Below are positions 1 through 14,257 of a DNA stretch of 21,103 nt, piece by piece. Origin of the DNA: a virus. The notes below the pieces were generated by a model that was not told the DNA's origin, ran no database searches, and saw only the letters and a list, made by a program, of their open reading frames with translations. The stretch covers positions 1 to 21,103 of IMG/VR virus record IMGVR_UViG_3300030090_005454; one strand, written 5' to 3'. The position numbers and the translations under genes are program-made. Position 1 is the stretch's first letter, and the number at the start of each line of letters is the position of its first letter.

Positions 1-1015
1 TATTGTATTTACCTTCTAAGAATACGCCAAGACTCTTATTTAACCTCCACCCAAAGATAAGGCCTGCACCGTAATCTAACCATTGCCCCCCTTCAGTGGT
101 TTCAAAGTAAGAATACTCATCGTCTGTCTTAAGATGATAAGGCATTACGCTCACCCAGTTGTGCATCCAAAATTCCTTAGAGTACTTGTAGTAGTCATAC
201 CCTACAACTAAAGAGTAATTCCATACACTCGGAAGCTCGCTTCTTTTCCTAGCAACATAGTCGTTAATAACTTGAGGTATAACAACCTGCTCCCATACAT
301 CGACGCTATTAGCTACAAGTGTACCGTCAGGGGCAAAGTATTCCCCACCTTGTACGTCTACAGTATAACCTTCTTGTAAAGCAAGGCTTGTGTAATGTAT
401 GTTGTTGTTTGATAACACCCACTCTTCCAAAGGATTATATCCGTATGGTTCAGATATACGCTGAGCCACTCCAATATTAAAACTAAGACGGTCATTTGCA
501 TTGAGTCTTAATCTTTGAGATCCCTCAAAATATTCTACATCAGCAAAACCATCTTGCAGGTATTCAGCTTTAGCTATCCAGTTTTTAGCTACGTATCGTA
601 AGAAATAATCTTGATCTAAAAAGTTTCTACCCTGCTGTCTACGCCAGTCAGCTTCAAACAAAAACTCAAATCCTTTTACTCTACCTATAGTAGCAGCATC
701 ACTGTATGACTTTTCTGTACCATCATAGAATACGTTAGCTCTGTTTTCGTAACCAAACCTAGCAATCTTACGAACACCTGCTGTAAAAGAATAATCAAAA
801 GGAGTTTCTAATACATCCGTTTGCAGTCCATTAGTGACAGAATAAATATTGTCATCAGCTACAGAGTTACCCCCACTAAAAGCTGTGTAGAATGTAGCAA
901 ACTTAAATGTCTTTTTTAGAGTCTGTCCTTTTGCTTCTATCGATGTACCTAGCATAAACACTAGGATCATTATAGCAATATAAATTATTGGAGTAAGATC
1001 TCTTTTATGTGTCAT
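1..1015 (-). CDS. Putative outer-membrane beta-barrel protein, C-terminus beyond window
   Basis: An open frame runs leftward from an ATG at 1015 off the window edge, giving 338 residues of an incomplete protein. The start is basic and then hydrophobic (residues 1-31, ending near IEAKGQ), which looks like a Sec signal peptide. The rest has alternating polar and aromatic residues and short turns (FATFYTAF, YSLVVGYDYYKY, GAGLIFGWRL), as expected for beta strands of an outer-membrane barrel. No family was recognised. The start overlaps the stop of the preceding 49-residue gene by one base (TGATG), so it is probably co-translated with that gene and with the T9SS cargo gene further upstream. A surface location is inferred; receptor modification, attachment of the neighbouring cargo or superinfection exclusion are all possible. 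Confidence 0.72.
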   Translation of the reverse strand, partial: MTHKRDLTPIIYIAIMILVFMLGTSIEAKGQTLKKTFKFATFYTAFSGGNSVADDNIYSVTNGLQTDVLETPFDYSFTAGVRKIARFGYENRANVFYDGTEKSYSDAATIGRVKGFEFLFEADWRRQQGRNFLDQDYFLRYVAKNWIAKAEYLQDGFADVEYFEGSQRLRLNANDRLSFNIGVAQRISEPYGYNPLEEWVLSNNNIHYTSLALQEGYTVDVQGGEYFAPDGTLVANSVDVWEQVVIPQVINDYVARKRSELPSVWNYSLVVGYDYYKYSKEFWMHNWVSVMPYHLKTDDEYSYFETTEGGQWLDYGAGLIFGWRLNKSLGVFLEGKYN

Positions 1016-1164
1016 CACACTTCGAATCCAAGGTTTAATATCATAAATCTAAACTTACTTCCGTAGCTTACTTCTAATACTGTAAGCGTTCCTAGCCTAA
1101 AAGAAAGCTCGTACACTTCTTTTTTGTTTCCAGCGTTCCAGCTGTTTATCCAATTAATCTTCAT
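1015..1164 (-). CDS. Small protein of 49 residues, unknown function
   Basis: The ATG at 1164 overlaps the TGA of the 824-residue gene (ATGA, 4 bases), and its own TGA overlaps the ATG of the barrel gene by one base. This coupling on both sides is the main reason to believe it. The product begins MKINWINSWNAGNKKEVYEL, lacks a signal peptide, and looks like a short beta-rich cytosolic polypeptide. No homolog is recognised. Confidence 0.55.
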   Translation of the reverse strand: MKINWINSWNAGNKKEVYELSFRLGTLTVLEVSYGSKFRFMILNLGFEV

Positions 1165-3635
1165 GATTTAATAATTTTCTTTTTAATAATTCTAGAGTTG
1201 TATTGTATTACCACTTCGTACACACCGTTAGAAAGATGTGAGAGGTCTATAGTCTTGTTAGAAGTTTGTATAACAACTTGACCTAAATAGTTATACAAAG
1301 ACACCACCGCAGTTGATGGAGCTTGTATGTATAGCAATCCGCTTGTTGGGTTTGGGTATACATTATATATATCATCTATGTCGTATACACCTTGTGGCCA
1401 ACCTTGCTCACAGTACGAGTAAAGATCTACGCATGTTTCATCCCATGCAACCTCACAACAGTATGGGTCGATGTCTATAATCCAAGCATAACAACCATCG
1501 TTAAGCCAGTACGGTTCACCAGGCCCACCTATACATCCTGCATCATATAAGCAAGCTTCTTCATCAGAAGTATTTGCTAACTCATTGTAATTAAAAGCAT
1601 TAGGGTCCATACAGTCGACCAATACTTCAATACACGAGCCGTTGTCTGTATTAGCCATTTCATCATAATTAAGGGCAGTGCTATCAGTACAGCCATAAAT
1701 GTAAGGAATACAACTAAAATCTTCTGTGTTAGCGGATGAGTTATAGTTAAGCATGCTAGGGTCAGTACACCCATAAACGTAAGGCTCACAATTAGTAGGG
1801 TCATATTCGGCATTTGCAGCGGGATTATAATTAAACATAGTATTGTCGGTGCATCCATAAACAAAAGACTCGCATTCCCCGTCATCAATATTTGCATTAG
1901 GATCATAGTTGTAAGCTCCTGGATCCATGCAGCCATATATATAAGGTATACAGCTATCATCATCCACATTTGCAGATGGTAAATAATTATACGCTAAAGA
2001 ATTCATACATCCCAATACCACGGGAACGCAACCTTCATTATCTACATTTGCCTCTTCGTTATAGTTAAAAGCATCTTGATCCATACATCCAAATACAGCT
2101 ATTGTTTCACAGCTACCGTCATCATAGTCAGCTTCATAACCTTGAGTGTAATACTCTAAGTAACCAGCCTGTGCACATCCAGCTTGGTAATAACAACTAC
2201 CATCTTCTGTGTTTACGTTAGGATTGTAATTTTGAGCAGTCTCATCTAAACATCCATAGGTATATGGCTCACAGTAATTACCACATCGTAAGTATGGTGT
2301 ATATACCTGATCAGGGTCTATAGGATCTAACCATGGATTAGTTCCTTTTTCAAATACTATGTTGCCGTTAGGACTAATCAGTTTAAAACCACATTGTGAT
2401 ACGTCAGTACTTGTTCCACCTTCACCAAAGAAACTGCCAAACTCTACTTCATAAAACTTAAACTCTACGTGCGTTTGAGAGCTTACTGTTATATCATAGA
2501 ATGCTTGTTCTTCTGTGCAGGTAAATGCACCAATAGGTTCACCATCTTGCACAACACCTAGATAAGATCCATCCCAACCATCACCACCTCCGTCAAATAG
2601 CATAAGCGTGTATTCACACTCAGGAATGTAATCCATAATATTTGCCTCTGGATCATAGTTAAATGCATTCTCGTTAAGACATCCTGGAACAGCAGGAGTT
2701 ACACATAAATTAGAGTCATTATTTGTAGCAAGAGAATTAAACTCTAAGTATTCTGGATCTAAACATCCAAACGGAGGGTTGTCTGGGGGGCAGGGGTTTA
2801 GTAAGTTCGGTTCACTAATAGCCTCGTATCCGTAGTCAGGATTCTGACCTTCGAATGGTAGTATGCTGTATATCGTATTACCACACTCTGTATACACAAG
2901 AACGTCTCCATCGGTAAACCCTCCTGTTGTAGATCCTGCAAGTCCGTCTCCAAACGTGTCGTATATGTTAAAGGTAAACTCTACTCCAAGAGGTATGCAA
3001 TATTCTGTTGTTACAGTAAGTCCTTCTGTTTGGTAAAAACCTACATCCTCACTAGCTAATACTACTGGTATGCTGTCTGTAGTAACTATCTCCCAGCTTG
3101 TTTCAAACGATGAATATGTATCTGCCGTAATACTTACATACACTTTTTGTGTAAATAGATCCCCACATTCTGACACCTCACCATACTGACAAGACTCTCC
3201 AAACTCACTTTCTATACCAGCAAAAGGATTGTAGTTTGTAGCCAAAGAATCTAAACAACCTATACCGCAGTTAGGGTTTTCAATAATTAATGTATCCATA
3301 ATCTCACCAGGAGACTCTACTATAAAGTAATATTCATCATTTGATACAGGTGAAGAAGACACCCCTCCATAAAAACTATTGAAAAACCACTGACCGTATG
3401 GGACAAACTGTAAGTCGTCTAAGTCGTCACCTCTGTAAAATCCTATTGGCTCGCAACCAGGAGTAGAAGGCTCCCACATAACTTGTAGTTGACCTTGGTT
3501 TGGTGCAAATGGAAAACAATCAATCTGGCCTTGAAGACCTTGAACACCACAAGGTAAAGGAGGCAGACTGTCTATAGGTGGTTGAGCAAAAACTAAACAC
3601 GGTAAAATAAAAAGCGCAAATAAAAGTTTCTTCAT
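1161..3635 (-). CDS. Large secreted protein with T9SS C-terminal sorting domain and GCxD cysteine repeats
   Basis: 824 residues. The N-terminus (MKKLLFALFILPCLVFAQ) is a clear Sec signal peptide cleaved near residue 18. Two beta-rich segments with DGxGDGW/YDTFGDGL motifs lie near residues 160-250 and 340-430. About a dozen repeats of the type GC(L/M/T)DxxAxNYxxxANxxDGSC start near residue 127, seven of them in tandem from about 515 to 695. A Cys-rich element (DPYCCEVAWDETC) lies near 715-741. The last 70 residues (YPNPTSG, LYNYLGQ, LSNGVYEV, then a basic KKKIIKS end) match the type A T9SS sorting domain that sends cargo across the outer membrane of Bacteroidetes. The protein should therefore be displayed on or released from the host surface through host machinery. 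A TAnnTTTG box sits just before the start. The exact role (adhesin, receptor mask, exclusion factor) is unknown. The C-terminal call is confident; finding it among phage genes is unusual. Confidence 0.9.
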   Translation of the reverse strand: MKKLLFALFILPCLVFAQPPIDSLPPLPCGVQGLQGQIDCFPFAPNQGQLQVMWEPSTPGCEPIGFYRGDDLDDLQFVPYGQWFFNSFYGGVSSSPVSNDEYYFIVESPGEIMDTLIIENPNCGIGCLDSLATNYNPFAGIESEFGESCQYGEVSECGDLFTQKVYVSITADTYSSFETSWEIVTTDSIPVVLASEDVGFYQTEGLTVTTEYCIPLGVEFTFNIYDTFGDGLAGSTTGGFTDGDVLVYTECGNTIYSILPFEGQNPDYGYEAISEPNLLNPCPPDNPPFGCLDPEYLEFNSLATNNDSNLCVTPAVPGCLNENAFNYDPEANIMDYIPECEYTLMLFDGGGDGWDGSYLGVVQDGEPIGAFTCTEEQAFYDITVSSQTHVEFKFYEVEFGSFFGEGGTSTDVSQCGFKLISPNGNIVFEKGTNPWLDPIDPDQVYTPYLRCGNYCEPYTYGCLDETAQNYNPNVNTEDGSCYYQAGCAQAGYLEYYTQGYEADYDDGSCETIAVFGCMDQDAFNYNEEANVDNEGCVPVVLGCMNSLAYNYLPSANVDDDSCIPYIYGCMDPGAYNYDPNANIDDGECESFVYGCTDNTMFNYNPAANAEYDPTNCEPYVYGCTDPSMLNYNSSANTEDFSCIPYIYGCTDSTALNYDEMANTDNGSCIEVLVDCMDPNAFNYNELANTSDEEACLYDAGCIGGPGEPYWLNDGCYAWIIDIDPYCCEVAWDETCVDLYSYCEQGWPQGVYDIDDIYNVYPNPTSGLLYIQAPSTAVVSLYNYLGQVVIQTSNKTIDLSHLSNGVYEVVIQYNSRIIKKKIIKS
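1551..2090 (-). repeat. Seven tandem coding repeats, GCxDxxAxNY type
   Basis: Seven contiguous units of 21-26 residues encode GC-D--A-NY---AN-DDGSC-like sequences in the T9SS cargo gene. Each unit has conserved cysteines at both ends and an acidic loop resembling calcium-binding repeats. The units are diverged at DNA level, so they are old protein repeats rather than recent duplications or a CRISPR array. Confidence 0.85.
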
Positions 3636-5193: not shown

Positions 5194-7647
5194 TTACTCT
5201 GATAATAATTGTGTTATAGTTTGTTCTAAAGGATCTTCTGGTTGGTCCTGCAGCTCACCCCTCCTATCTCTTCTTTGAGATATTAACTTTGACTGCTGAA
5301 CGGCTTGCTTCGTAACACGCTCATCTTTTCTATCTTCTTTAAGAACCTCAAGCTTTTCTTTAAACTCCTGATCGTCAGTTTTAAATCCTAACGTAGCCTG
5401 AGCTCTAATTATCTCTATCTCTTTACGTTGCTCGTGGGCTATTTTACTTACCTCTATTTCTGCTTGAGCTTTAGCTTGAATCTTTTGCATTTCAATCTGA
5501 GCTTCAGCTTGCATTTTTTGAGCTTCCATTTGCTGCTTCATCTGCTCAGCTTGCATGGCCATTTGTTGCTGCTGTTGTTGCATAGCCATCTGCTGCTGTT
5601 GTTTGGTCGCTTGCCTCTTTTTTCTTCTAACCATCAAAAGCCTTTGAGCCTGATTAACATCTTTAAGATCTCGTATGGCTAATACATCTTCTAGATCTAT
5701 TTCCTGCTGACCTAAAGAAACTTGTATCATTTGCTCTAGCGATTGCTTGTCTTGAGCCTCCATATCTTTTACAACCTTAACGCCAAAATTGTACATCGAC
5801 AAATCATTAAAAGAAGATAAAACGCTCATATTGTTTTCACCTATAGCGTTAGCATAAACCCTATATACGACAGACTCCTCAGGTAATATTTGCAAACACT
5901 TAACAACGTCTGAGCAAACCTTCTTGTATAAAACCATAGAAGCATTAGTAATGTTATAAATAGCGTTATTGCTAGCTTGCATGGCTTGTTCTCTAACTCC
6001 AACTAAAGAATCTGATTTAGGCGTTGAAGCATCCATAACTTCATTAATACCTGTAGCGTCTCTGATTAAACGTAAGTAATGGTTGTACAATCCTATAAGC
6101 TCGTTGATGTTTCTGATACTGTTGCCTATCTCACGAACTGGAGGGTTTTGGAATCCTCCTTCTGGATTTTTACTTCTGTAGTAAAACACCCCAGTCTGTT
6201 CGTATATATCGTGCAGGTCTAGCGGTTGTAGTTCACCGCCTTTACCTAGCTGCACGTTTTCTAAACCTTCAATATCAATAATAAGACCGTCAGGTTTAGC
6301 TTTTGCAATAGACTGTTGAATTTTAAGATGTGTTATTTGAAGCATATCAGCAAACCCTATACAGCTATCAACTAATGACTTAGGACACATTTCTTGCATG
6401 TTTACTGCAACACAAGAATAAGACATCTTAGCTCTAGAAATATCATGAACATTTTTAGGAATGTTCTTTTTTCTACCATAGTCAAATAAATAATCACACC
6501 CTAAAACGTAACTACCACCATATACAGTTTCTACATTCATCTGATGAGCAGTCCTGTCATAAACAGATCCATGCTTTTCTTTATAGGAATAACCTTTATA
6601 GTAGAAACCAGAATTACCGTGCTTACTTTCTTTTTCTTCAAAGTGAATACAGTCAACAGCAAGGAACTCAAAGTCTAATACGTCAACCATATAGTCGTCA
6701 TAACCATAAGTGGTTTTACCTTTTATGTTATCGTAAAAAGTGTAGTTTAACGAAGATGAATTATTACCGTCTCTACCAGCTGCGTTATGTGCAATTTTTT
6801 CATATTGCTTTTCTGTAAGCTGATCTCCAGCTAATCTTTTTAGCTCAGCTATTGTAATCTTTTTAATATGGCCCGCATACACAAGATCGTTCATTCCAGG
6901 ATCTTCTGTCTGACTGTGAATAAACATCACAGGGTCTACATAATTAGTAGAAATACCATAGTTAGGATCGTTGTTTCTTTTAACAACTGCCATACCGCAA
7001 GTCACAAGATCATTAACGCACCTTCTAAGTATATCGTCATTAAAGTCGTTCCACTCAAGAGTCATCATAGTGCCTATCTGAGCAGCTATCTCTGCATCAG
7101 TCTTTATACTTGTACCCATGAAGATTTCAGCCTCTTCTAAAGTTTCTGGTATTTCGTTTGGATCTCCATTTATTTCTAATCCATTCTGCTTGAGTTTCAT
7201 TAACTCCTTCTTAGCTAAAACAGAAGCTTCAACCTTTTTCTTTTCTGCGTCTTTTTCAGAAGATGATAATGGATCAATAGCCTCAACATTGGGTTGAGGG
7301 TTTCTTGAAAGAATGTTGTTTACAACAATTTTAGCAAACTTAGGTAAGATAGGTACAGGAGTGTAGTCAAGATTTAAAAGTGTTCCAGAATTACCATTTG
7401 GGTCGAGAGAAGTTAAAAGTTTTTTATATGGAGTTGTATCTTGAGTACCGTTTGCGTACTTTCTACTTCTAGTAAATGTATCTTTTTTAGTCCTGTATAT
7501 AGAACGTGAATCCGCTCCACTCCCCCATTGGTTTTCAATAGCTTTTGCATATTGAAGACCGTACTCCTGCATAGACTTTTCTTCTGCTGGCGCTAACGGA
7601 TTTGGAAAACCTTTAGGTGAATTACCCTTTTTATTACTACTGTACAT
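5194..7647 (-). CDS. Phage portal protein
   Basis: 817 residues. The portal forms the ring at the capsid vertex through which DNA is packaged and ejected. The sequence has portal-like features: an early FAKIVVNNILSRNPQPNVEA segment, LRRCVNDLVTCGMAVVKR and YVDPVMFIHSQTEDP in the stem/wing region, and RDATGINEVMDASTPKSDS near residue 540. The last 150 residues form a long Gln/Met/Lys-rich coiled coil, with runs of glutamine near 670-700. Length and pattern recall portals of crAss-like phages of Bacteroidetes (from memory). It lies directly after TerL in the same direction, the usual order, and has a TATATTTG box in the gap before it. Confidence 0.82.
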   Translation of the reverse strand: MYSSNKKGNSPKGFPNPLAPAEEKSMQEYGLQYAKAIENQWGSGADSRSIYRTKKDTFTRSRKYANGTQDTTPYKKLLTSLDPNGNSGTLLNLDYTPVPILPKFAKIVVNNILSRNPQPNVEAIDPLSSSEKDAEKKKVEASVLAKKELMKLKQNGLEINGDPNEIPETLEEAEIFMGTSIKTDAEIAAQIGTMMTLEWNDFNDDILRRCVNDLVTCGMAVVKRNNDPNYGISTNYVDPVMFIHSQTEDPGMNDLVYAGHIKKITIAELKRLAGDQLTEKQYEKIAHNAAGRDGNNSSSLNYTFYDNIKGKTTYGYDDYMVDVLDFEFLAVDCIHFEEKESKHGNSGFYYKGYSYKEKHGSVYDRTAHQMNVETVYGGSYVLGCDYLFDYGRKKNIPKNVHDISRAKMSYSCVAVNMQEMCPKSLVDSCIGFADMLQITHLKIQQSIAKAKPDGLIIDIEGLENVQLGKGGELQPLDLHDIYEQTGVFYYRSKNPEGGFQNPPVREIGNSIRNINELIGLYNHYLRLIRDATGINEVMDASTPKSDSLVGVREQAMQASNNAIYNITNASMVLYKKVCSDVVKCLQILPEESVVYRVYANAIGENNMSVLSSFNDLSMYNFGVKVVKDMEAQDKQSLEQMIQVSLGQQEIDLEDVLAIRDLKDVNQAQRLLMVRRKKRQATKQQQQMAMQQQQQQMAMQAEQMKQQMEAQKMQAEAQIEMQKIQAKAQAEIEVSKIAHEQRKEIEIIRAQATLGFKTDDQEFKEKLEVLKEDRKDERVTKQAVQQSKLISQRRDRRGELQDQPEDPLEQTITQLLSE

Positions 7648-7698: not shown

Positions 7699-9822
7699 TT
7701 AGTAAGCCTTGAACCTTCTAAGAAAGACCCTATCAGAAAGATCTGATTTTTTAGGTTTAGGCTTTACCTTTTGCGCAGCAAGTAAACATAAGCCAGAGCT
7801 AATAGTTAAGTCAAACTTTGTTCTATTTGTTATTTGATATCCAATCCAATCTTCTAAAGTTCTGTTAAAATACATCTTTCCCATCTCGCCAGTGTCATAA
7901 TTAATACCAACATGATCATGTATATAAGACTCAATAGCATGAGCATGAGATTGAATAACATCTTGAGAGTTAGAAGGTATGCCTTTTGTTTTTGATTTTA
8001 TTGTAGAGGAGTTTGCTGCAAGTAAATGCCTAGGTCTATCCATTAAATATCCGTCATAACCCCTTGATTCAAAGTGTCTTGCAATACCATACTTATTGTT
8101 TTCAATTAATATAGGGTACCCATAAAATACAGCAGCCATAAGAACATCTTCATAAAAGATTTTTGCTAGAGGCGGGCGGGATGCATACTCAAGTACAAAC
8201 GTGTTTGATGGATGCTCCATATGAAACTTATTGTATAAGTGTAGCGCACCCTTAGACCCCCGTCCATCGACGGTGGCATCAAGGTCATAAGAGTCAACCC
8301 CGCCTACTCCCAGCTCTGCATTTGGCGCAATTTTTTTTCCTCTATTTAACAGCCTTTGGTTTCTTAGTTCTACTGGAGGTATCCAAGCAACTCTAAATCT
8401 ACCATTAGGATCTGGAGCAAAGACTACCTCTGTGTCTTTTTCACCACCTTTCCAGGTAAAGTTACCAACTACTACAGGGTTAGGAAATAAATCATCATTA
8501 AATTGTATTTGCTCGTATATCTTACCTATATTAAATAAACTTCCTTCTATACTATCCCTAAAAGCTTCATCAGTAGTAAACGGAAACTGTCTTACTACTT
8601 CATTTAATTCAGAAGCATCATGCTTGAGGCTGTCTCTTTCGTTCTTTAAATACTCTTTAGCCCCCATAGTAATGGACTCTCCGTCAAGTCCTTTGACTTC
8701 AGATTCTGGAGTGTCAACTACTGGCATCCCGTACTTATCAAAAAAACCCTCTAATGATTCTTGAGCTGGTATAAATAATCTATATAGCCCAGTCCTAGTC
8801 CTCCCATTCGCATTCCTCTCCGAGGGATTCGAATCCTTCCATAGATCCTTGTATTCTTTTCCACCTTTGTCCATTGGATTTACGGTGCTTCCGATTAGAG
8901 CCTTTCCTATTATTTTTCGCCCTACGATCAAACAAGTCCTCTGAATCCTCCAAGCGTCTCTTATGTCTGTTGGTTTTTCCCATTTTCCTGCTTCGTCTAA
9001 ATACAACATGTGTAGCTTCTCACCGTCGTATGCGTTGTTAGTTGTGTTCTTCCAATTAATAACTGTGTTTAGCGCTTCACCTACTTGGGATATTTTATTG
9101 TTTTTAGTGATACGCTTTGACGGCTCTCTAAAAGCTAACTCCATACGTGGATTAGTAGTACCGTCTTGTATAGGTTTAAAGAAAAATGGATAGCTTCTAA
9201 ACATGTAAACCACCTTCTTCATAAAAATATTTTCCTGAGCATCTTTACCAGTCTTCGACTGTATACCCATAAGCTTGTCTTTTACTTGCGTAGCTTCGTC
9301 AACAAGCACTGAAGAGCATATATTAGTATACCCAGAACGACGGCACTTAGTATAAAGCTGACCAATGCAACGTGGATCAGCTTCGCATGCAGCCATGTGT
9401 ATAAAGATTTCACGTTGAAAGTTAAGAAAATACGGATAGCCAACATCTAGCTTGGTCCACTGTAGCATCATGTAATGCCTCCCCGTAATATATGTAGGTG
9501 TACCGTTGTTATAAAACCAAAAACCCTCACGCCTACGTTTAAACTCTTCTTCGATATATGGACGAAACCTTTCTCTGAACTCCCTTGGCATTTCCGCCCA
9601 CTCATCCATAGAACGAATACGAGACAATTCCTTGGGCATAGGTATCCTTTGCCACACCTGCATATCGTTTGATTTTTTATATCCGACAATGTTTTTCTTT
9701 GACGGCCTTTTTGGAAGGCAAATGAGTAACCCACCGAGTTCGATAAGCTCACCTTCCGTACCGTTGGGACAAATCTTAACAGCAGGTTCTTCATATTCTT
9801 TTATGTCTAATAAATTATTCAA
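7699..9822 (-). CDS. terL: Terminase large subunit (DNA-packaging ATPase/nuclease)
   Basis: 707 residues. TerL pumps DNA into the capsid and cuts the concatemer. The ATPase half shows a Walker A-type segment KCRRSGYTN (residues 159-167), in which the usual GKT lysine is replaced by the R/S-rich form found in some terminases, and Walker B HMLYLDE (271-277). The RNase H-like nuclease half shows GGVDSYDLD (D510/D513), ILIENN (E574) and a late KFDLTIS (D672), a full acidic set. HYMMLQW before the ATPase recalls crAss-like terminases (from memory). The start must be non-ATG: the frame closes upstream at a TAA, the only usual start before residue 54 is the TTG at 9822, and this overlaps the end of the HNH gene by 8 bases. 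Translational coupling to HNH is therefore likely. Confidence 0.92.
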   Translation of the reverse strand: MNNLLDIKEYEEPAVKICPNGTEGELIELGGLLICLPKRPSKKNIVGYKKSNDMQVWQRIPMPKELSRIRSMDEWAEMPREFRERFRPYIEEEFKRRREGFWFYNNGTPTYITGRHYMMLQWTKLDVGYPYFLNFQREIFIHMAACEADPRCIGQLYTKCRRSGYTNICSSVLVDEATQVKDKLMGIQSKTGKDAQENIFMKKVVYMFRSYPFFFKPIQDGTTNPRMELAFREPSKRITKNNKISQVGEALNTVINWKNTTNNAYDGEKLHMLYLDEAGKWEKPTDIRDAWRIQRTCLIVGRKIIGKALIGSTVNPMDKGGKEYKDLWKDSNPSERNANGRTRTGLYRLFIPAQESLEGFFDKYGMPVVDTPESEVKGLDGESITMGAKEYLKNERDSLKHDASELNEVVRQFPFTTDEAFRDSIEGSLFNIGKIYEQIQFNDDLFPNPVVVGNFTWKGGEKDTEVVFAPDPNGRFRVAWIPPVELRNQRLLNRGKKIAPNAELGVGGVDSYDLDATVDGRGSKGALHLYNKFHMEHPSNTFVLEYASRPPLAKIFYEDVLMAAVFYGYPILIENNKYGIARHFESRGYDGYLMDRPRHLLAANSSTIKSKTKGIPSNSQDVIQSHAHAIESYIHDHVGINYDTGEMGKMYFNRTLEDWIGYQITNRTKFDLTISSGLCLLAAQKVKPKPKKSDLSDRVFLRRFKAY

Positions 9823-13957: not shown

Positions 13958-14257
13958 ATGAAGAATTTAATTTTAATTATCGCTATGTCGATATCCGCAA
14001 CAGCCTTTTCTCAGACTGTCTTAGTAATAAATGACCTTAAATACAATGAAGGTATAGACACAGAGTGGAGCGTATTATACATACCACACTACCCAGAAGT
14101 TGAAGGTGAGTACCTTGAAGAAGATAACCAATGGTACTTTAATGTTAGAGGAGATCACAGGGTATTTACTTTAAGAGCTAATAATCCAGGTATCTACCAA
14201 GTTAAACAAGAGCTAGACGATGTTATTATTCAAATATCATCAGTTCGTGTAGATTAA
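13958..14257 (+). CDS. Small secreted protein (moron-like unit)
   Basis: 99 residues with a clean Sec signal peptide (MKNLILIIAMSISATAFSQ, cut after about residue 19). The mature part of about 80 residues looks like an all-beta domain (TEWSVLYIPHY, QWYFNVRGDHRVFTLRANN, IIQISSVRVD). It lacks cysteines and a T9SS tail, so a periplasmic location is likely. The gene faces against both flanking leftward operons and is followed immediately by a strong terminator, the classic build of a moron, an added host-modifying gene with its own transcription. No homolog is recognised. Confidence 0.72.
   Translation: MKNLILIIAMSISATAFSQTVLVINDLKYNEGIDTEWSVLYIPHYPEVEGEYLEEDNQWYFNVRGDHRVFTLRANNPGIYQVKQELDDVIIQISSVRVD

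Follow-up and report, generated by a model that had tools for sequence, protein, structure and literature searches.

The gene at 1161..3635 (minus strand), first noticed as a cargo gene of the type IX secretion system (T9SS) in a phage genome, is one member of a conserved viral cassette that also encodes an outer-membrane beta-barrel, a coiled-coil protein and a thioredoxin-fold protein. The initial annotation, made from the window analyzed here (21,103 bases at the left end of an IMG/VR virus record 24,328 bases long), missed this main point. Phage T9SS cargo in itself is not new, having been reported in 2019-2020; the conserved cassette is our main result. It turns an isolated phage cargo into a widespread gene set, a search with the barrel alignment finding the barrel family in at least 582 viral contigs. 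As an explanation of the whole, a late envelope cassette that displays a lectin-like adhesin by way of the host T9SS seems to us somewhat likelier to be right than wrong.

The cargo gene begins with ATG and encodes 824 amino acids; 69 viral contigs, spread over about 54 datasets, carry relatives. Its N-terminus, MKKLLFALFILPCLVFAQ (residues 1-18, 3582..3635, minus strand), resembles a signal peptide, as first read from the sequence, and the hydrophobic-segment statistic agrees: a signal-like segment occurs in 86 of 97 distinct cargo relatives vs 36 of 817 other phage ORFs used as controls. An AlphaFold (AF2) model built on 27 relatives has a pTM of 0.27 overall, so single domains can be read from it and their arrangement cannot. 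Residues 30-123 (3267..3548, minus strand) form a fibronectin-III-like domain, assigned by fold only (VIA-align Z up to 9.0), which some relatives lack. A first beta-sandwich with a DTFGDG motif (residues 162-258, 2862..3152, minus strand) is delimited by modeled strands at a pLDDT of about 80 and by conserved D, G and C columns. The second, with a DGGGDGW motif (residues 340-450, 2286..2618, minus strand), has a CBM60-like fold match to structure 2xfd_A that is weak and close to background (Z 8.1, 89 residues aligned). The GCxD cysteine-rich repeats pointed out in the initial annotation follow at residues 461-700 (1536..2255, minus strand); eight motifs are counted in the sequence, their cysteines mostly invariant in alignment A4, and many cysteines of the cysteine-rich tail behind them are likewise invariant across relatives. 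Matches of the cargo to cellular proteins fall mainly in this repeat region. GCxD repeats are also numerous in a 3061-aa phage protein (3917-13102 in L071 and L072) without signal peptide or sorting domain, so the repeat occurs in a probably virion-type protein as well.

The C-terminal sorting domain (CTD; residues 759-823, 1167..1361, minus strand) is recognized above curated cut-offs by both HMM libraries: Pfam PF18962 (E 3.4e-11, 43.7 bits against a cut-off of 27, residues 759-822) and NCBIfam TIGR04183 (E 1.8e-11, 43.9 bits against 23, residues 759-823). It is the only T9SS sorting domain in the whole virus record. Modeled at a pLDDT of about 80-87, the predicted fold of residues 754-824 matches the CTD of RgpB (5ag8; Z 9.7, rmsd 1.6 A), the T9SS-bound CTD of NucA (8glk_D; Z 8.8, 30% identity) and that of FspA from a T9SS-complex structure (8glj_D; Z 8.5, 33% identity), with further matches to mirolase and PorZ. 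The cargo is thus a genuine T9SS type A protein, with a signal-like N-terminus and a CTD established by HMM and by Ig-like fold. Given a working T9SS in the host, which is assumed here, it is very probably exported by that system; three Bacteroidota metagenome-assembled genomes (MAGs) with cassette contigs in them show 15-42 CTD matches.

The virion-gene neighborhood described at the outset is genuine. The window encodes a portal protein at 5194..7647 (minus strand; phrog_6547, E 6.3e-192) and a terminase large subunit at 7699..9822 (minus strand; phrog_6681, E 3.8e-204), with a GroES-like gene and a DUF5675 gene nearby, and the cargo gene lies two genes after the portal, among virion genes. 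Two minor observations concern this region: a Laminin G-like protein (PF13385; 12450-13262, minus strand) without evident signal peptide adjoins the DUF5675 gene, and a 99-aa ORF at 13958-14257 (plus strand), with a signal-peptide-like N-terminus, runs on the strand opposite to its neighbors. Locus L004, a contig reaching beyond the left edge of the window, encodes the identical cargo (100% over residues 1-824). Its gene order is a baseplate-like gene, a 378-aa gene, cargo, a 49-aa gene, barrel, coil, the thioredoxin-fold gene and several small genes, and the block sits between the portal and scaffold/capsid-type genes (virion structural gene phrog_13704).

By terminase, the nearest isolates are Manatee Spring podovirus (50%), Elemovirus (42%), Cellulophaga phages phi46:3 and phi38:1, and Tenacibaculum phage Gundel_1. 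None of these five genomes contains a T9SS sorting domain, and those whose annotation was examined continue from the portal into structural or hypothetical genes, without the cassette. Elemovirus, the two Cellulophaga phages and Gundel_1 share related terminase and portal genes and the same module order with the window, but have neither the sorting domain nor a barrel relative. Since structural genes follow the portal in these cultured relatives, the cassette appears as an extra insert in the lineage of the window. The initial annotation had suggested looking for the same arrangement in other phages, with a divided outcome: many viral contigs carry it, and none of the deposited or cultured phages tested does. 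A search for integrases of the tyrosine type found none in 43 related, possibly incomplete records, and the cassette phages are therefore likely to be lytic.

Gene clustering around the 69 cargo relatives returned the barrel, a coil protein of about 94 aa and a thioredoxin-fold protein of about 112 aa as constant companions. To count linkage, 106 distinct full barrels were collected, and the 77 with 3 kb of sequence on both sides were used. At 75 of the 77, a sorting-domain cargo gene is encoded on the strand of the barrel, no more than 3.5 kb away. The sorting-domain model behind this count was built from cassette cargos; the models of Pfam and NCBIfam, which are independent of it, give agreeing results in the records tested. 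The distance from cargo to barrel is at most 400 nt at 61 loci, 32 of them with a 4-nt start/stop overlap. All four genes occur at 66 of the 77; the thioredoxin-fold and coil genes are absent near some barrels. The order is cargo-barrel-coil-thioredoxin at 53 loci and barrel-coil-thioredoxin-cargo at 12. In the window, a 49-aa linker gene (cluster 13; 1015..1164, minus strand), sharing 4 nt at its start with the end of the cargo gene, separates cargo from barrel, and relatives of 60-62 aa take the same place at many loci.

The independent models give similar figures by record: PF18962 passes its cut-off in 45 of 50 records with cargo relatives, and TIGR04183 in 40 of 43 viral records with a barrel, nearly always as a single domain per record. 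At two of the 77 barrels (L029, L030) no cargo with a recognized CTD was found. The cargos there and at L057 end instead in another conserved tail, ITDLLGRP...YIYSDGSIERK, possibly a different type of sorting domain. At L106, L112 and L115, the barrel is preceded by two consecutive sorting-domain cargos, of which the second is short (411-521 aa) and differs in its type of N-terminus.

The terminase family of the window is present in 40 of 45 cassette records, in two of them only remotely, and none was seen in the sequence available for the other five. One record (L028) carries a tape-measure-like gene, which extends the cassette beyond a single short-tailed lineage. Distances between cargo bodies do not track those between portals (r 0.09, n=31), while barrel, thioredoxin-fold and coil distances correlate mutually (r 0.68-0.76). 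This pattern suggests that cargos are exchanged as the three envelope partners travel together.

The barrel gene of the window (2..1018, minus strand) is cut at the contig end after 339 of 358 aa; a full copy lies at 12618-13694 in L004. Its AlphaFold model has 12 strands (pLDDT 73.6, pTM 0.63), and the best matching solved folds are Tsx (Z 13.4), NanC, KdgM, NalP and OMPLA, mostly 12-stranded barrels. A C-terminal GxxPhixPhi beta-signal is present in 106 of 106 barrels. The family is specific to phages, with its at least 582 viral contigs, and among 84,980 prokaryotic genomes it occurs in five contigs only (L073-L077); it is absent from the 50,697 deposited phage records searched. The five are MAG contigs with cassette genes inside them, one labeled Nitrosopelagicus, and are probably phage contigs binned with cells. 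The barrel has no meaningful family in Pfam (no match for the L004 copy) or NCBIfam, and PHROGs gives no clear label for the barrel, the thioredoxin-fold gene or the linker.

Membership by sequence in the bacterial PorP/SprF family was considered and rejected: 27 barrel members have no match to the NCBIfam PorP/SprF models at E up to 1. The partner CTD is of type A, not type B. PorV and PorP structures do not appear among the best fold matches listed for the barrel, which may nonetheless share their fold. One PorP/SprF-like trait is present, the barrel gene lying directly downstream of the cargo gene in most of the 77 loci. Coevolution was also weighed as proof of contact. Overall, barrel distances correlate better with the CTD (0.70) than with the cargo body (0.48), but the 13 loci with a CTD distant from the barrel show the reverse, 0.85 for the body and 0.68 for the CTD. 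The correlation is therefore explainable by linkage, from which it cannot be distinguished, and it was rejected as proof.

The two remaining genes lie beyond the contig end of the window. The coiled-coil gene (13694-13978 in L004) encodes a protein with one N-terminal membrane segment and a C-terminal helix- or coiled-coil-like tail, predicted to reside in the inner membrane. Among 296 genomes of the order of the Flavobacteriales MAG, the family is convincing in one, the phage-bearing MAG itself. The thioredoxin-fold gene (13975-14313 in L004) encodes a protein with a signal-like N-terminus, predicted to be periplasmic, that scores below the Pfam Thioredoxin cut-off (E 0.0042, 17.5 bits against 23.5). 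All 25 aligned sequences have NxxN instead of CxxC, which leaves no thiol chemistry possible at that site; the Pro-Thr motif is invariant. Matches to Streptomyces phage thioredoxins (E 5e-4) reflect the general fold only, and special kinship was rejected. Because the cargo has many conserved cysteines, the protein could plausibly serve it as a chaperone or binder.

We propose that the parts work together as follows. The cargo would be exported by Sec into the periplasm, where it may be held, or its folding aided, with the thioredoxin-fold protein as a plausible chaperone. Its CTD would then take it through the SprA translocon of the host to the cell surface. Display there, the natural reading of such a protein and the one given in the initial annotation, may block superinfection, change adhesion or mask receptors, the three roles that annotation supposed. 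In the outer membrane, the phage barrel would serve this cargo specifically, as its shuttle or anchor, much as in the SprB/SprF pair of bacteria. The displayed lectin-like adhesin would alter the surface of the infected cell, most likely so that further phages or newly released progeny no longer adsorb to infected cells and debris.

These steps are not equally probable. We give an even chance to the barrel being the partner of the cargo, which it would then contact. A little short of even, in our estimate, is the full picture of marine, apparently lytic Bacteroidota phages that bring their own T9SS cargo with a cognate shuttle or anchor barrel, a redox-dead thioredoxin and a coil helper, and borrow SprA from the host to rebuild the surface of the infected cell. 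An exclusion-type purpose for the cassette is put forward tentatively, as an idea more apt to fail than to hold; superinfection exclusion, if any, would probably act during lytic infection, since no tyrosine integrase was found. That cassette phages routinely remodel the surface of the infected cell is suggested by the cargo adjoining a phage-only barrel in hundreds of related viral contigs.

The bacterial precedent is close in genetics. The gene for a type B cargo adhesin often stands immediately ahead of one for a PorP/SprF barrel, by which the adhesin is collected or anchored, and type A cargo shares PorV (PMC12618676, PMC9143113). The cassette resembles the SprB-SprF and PG1035-PorP pairs in placing a T9SS-CTD adhesin gene directly before an outer-membrane barrel gene (PMC12618676, PMC9143113). 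Those pairs have type B CTDs and PorP/SprF barrels, whereas the cassette has a type A CTD and a phage-only barrel modeled with 12 strands. A dedicated partner is proposed because the genetics are SprB/SprF-like, yet the CTD is type A and the barrel lacks a sequence match; a private shuttle is not required, since host PorV normally handles type A CTDs. If dedicated display is true, the phages possess their own counterpart of SprB/SprF, made for a type A CTD. The cassette would be a natural test case for an own outer-membrane partner of type A cargo against shared PorV, and it would offer a direct way into the changes that Bacteroidota phages make to the outside of the host cell as they infect it.

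The remark that little had been described on phage-borne T9SS cargo is right only in part. The report on Cryophage (2020) describes phage-encoded type A cargo and already suggests hijack of the host T9SS and superinfection exclusion (PMC7468147). Cryophage (MT820023) is like the window in encoding a secreted protein with a sorting domain of type A; its cargos are an endoglucanase, a GH39 protein and a PA14 protein, unlike the cargo here, and it is set apart further by description only, the available text mentioning no barrel, coil and thioredoxin cassette (PMC7468147). Sorting-domain proteins were reported in crAss-like phages of Bacteroidetes in 2019, where, as in the window, they are encoded close to the head section of the genome; these are gut phages with a BACON-domain context, and no cassette is described in the part of that report available (PMC6949934). 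A search of the open-access literature, with most subscription papers and bioRxiv preprints outside it, found no description of the barrel-coil-thioredoxin cassette.

Lysis is a serious rival to display, because 30 of 71 loci have a holin-like gene nearby (phrog_3427 holin), at no more than 200 nt from the cassette in 15. The barrel, coil and secreted proteins would destabilize the envelope late in infection in place of spanins, the cargo being accessory. The coil protein has the layout of i-spanins, with its N-terminal membrane segment and helix-like tail, and DUF5675 occurs in 15 of 71 loci. We nevertheless consider a lysis cassette unlikely. In the sequence available, 41 of 71 loci have no holin-like gene, and no lipoprotein o-spanin partner was identified. 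A T9SS adhesin of several hundred residues has no obvious lytic role, and disruption of membranes from inside needs no CTD. We prefer masking or alteration of the surface to lysis because, of all partners of the barrel, the exported adhesin is the most constant.

Still less probable is a moron of host origin. It would be a captured bacterial adhesin or lectin with no phage partner of its own, exported to benefit the host through adhesion or polysaccharide binding, the kind of role proposed for the Cryophage enzymes. GCxD repeats are indeed common in Flavobacteriales proteins (61 of 196 genomes in the order of the Flavobacteriales MAG), and enzymatic phage T9SS cargo exists (PMC7468147). The cargo, however, is tied to three other genes, and barrel and coil are nearly absent from bacterial genomes; nearly all lineages have a single cargo per record, the scanned cargos contain no enzyme domain that we could find, and long-term host benefit would bring little gain to apparently lytic phages.

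We think it very unlikely that the protein is a tail fiber or receptor-binding protein merely resembling T9SS cargo. Its gene does lie among virion genes, two after the portal, and its domains are carbohydrate-binding-like, but the signal-like N-terminus would direct it away from the cytoplasm, the site of virion assembly, and the CTD is conserved in both sequence and fold. Its neighbors likewise have signal-like N-termini (barrel 96 of 106, thioredoxin-fold protein 85 of 90, vs the same 36 of 817 controls). An assembly chimera of host and phage DNA, named at the outset as what would undo the finding, is practically ruled out and has nothing in its favor, since the cargo locus recurs in independent assemblies: dozens of contigs, drawn from about 54 datasets, share its gene order, and L004 encodes the identical protein.

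A few further observations were made among the related records. A type B T9SS CTD (CHU_C, PF13585) occurs as a separate gene in nine viral records (G063, G065, G081, G083, G088, G090, G093, G021 and G035), the locus noted being L028 (1-837). Several of these genes, ORFs of about 300-600 aa, are encoded on the strand opposite to the cassette, about 2 kb or less away from it. In L043, a very long viral contig of 297,623 bases, a T9SS cargo of 1321 aa is followed a few genes later by a distant barrel (21% identity); the contig may belong to a jumbo phage or be cellular and misclassified. Stop-codon reassignment is known in some crAss-like phages; in record G022 (L029), the terminase frame at 85975-87984 contains three in-frame TAG codons, which suggests reassignment there too.
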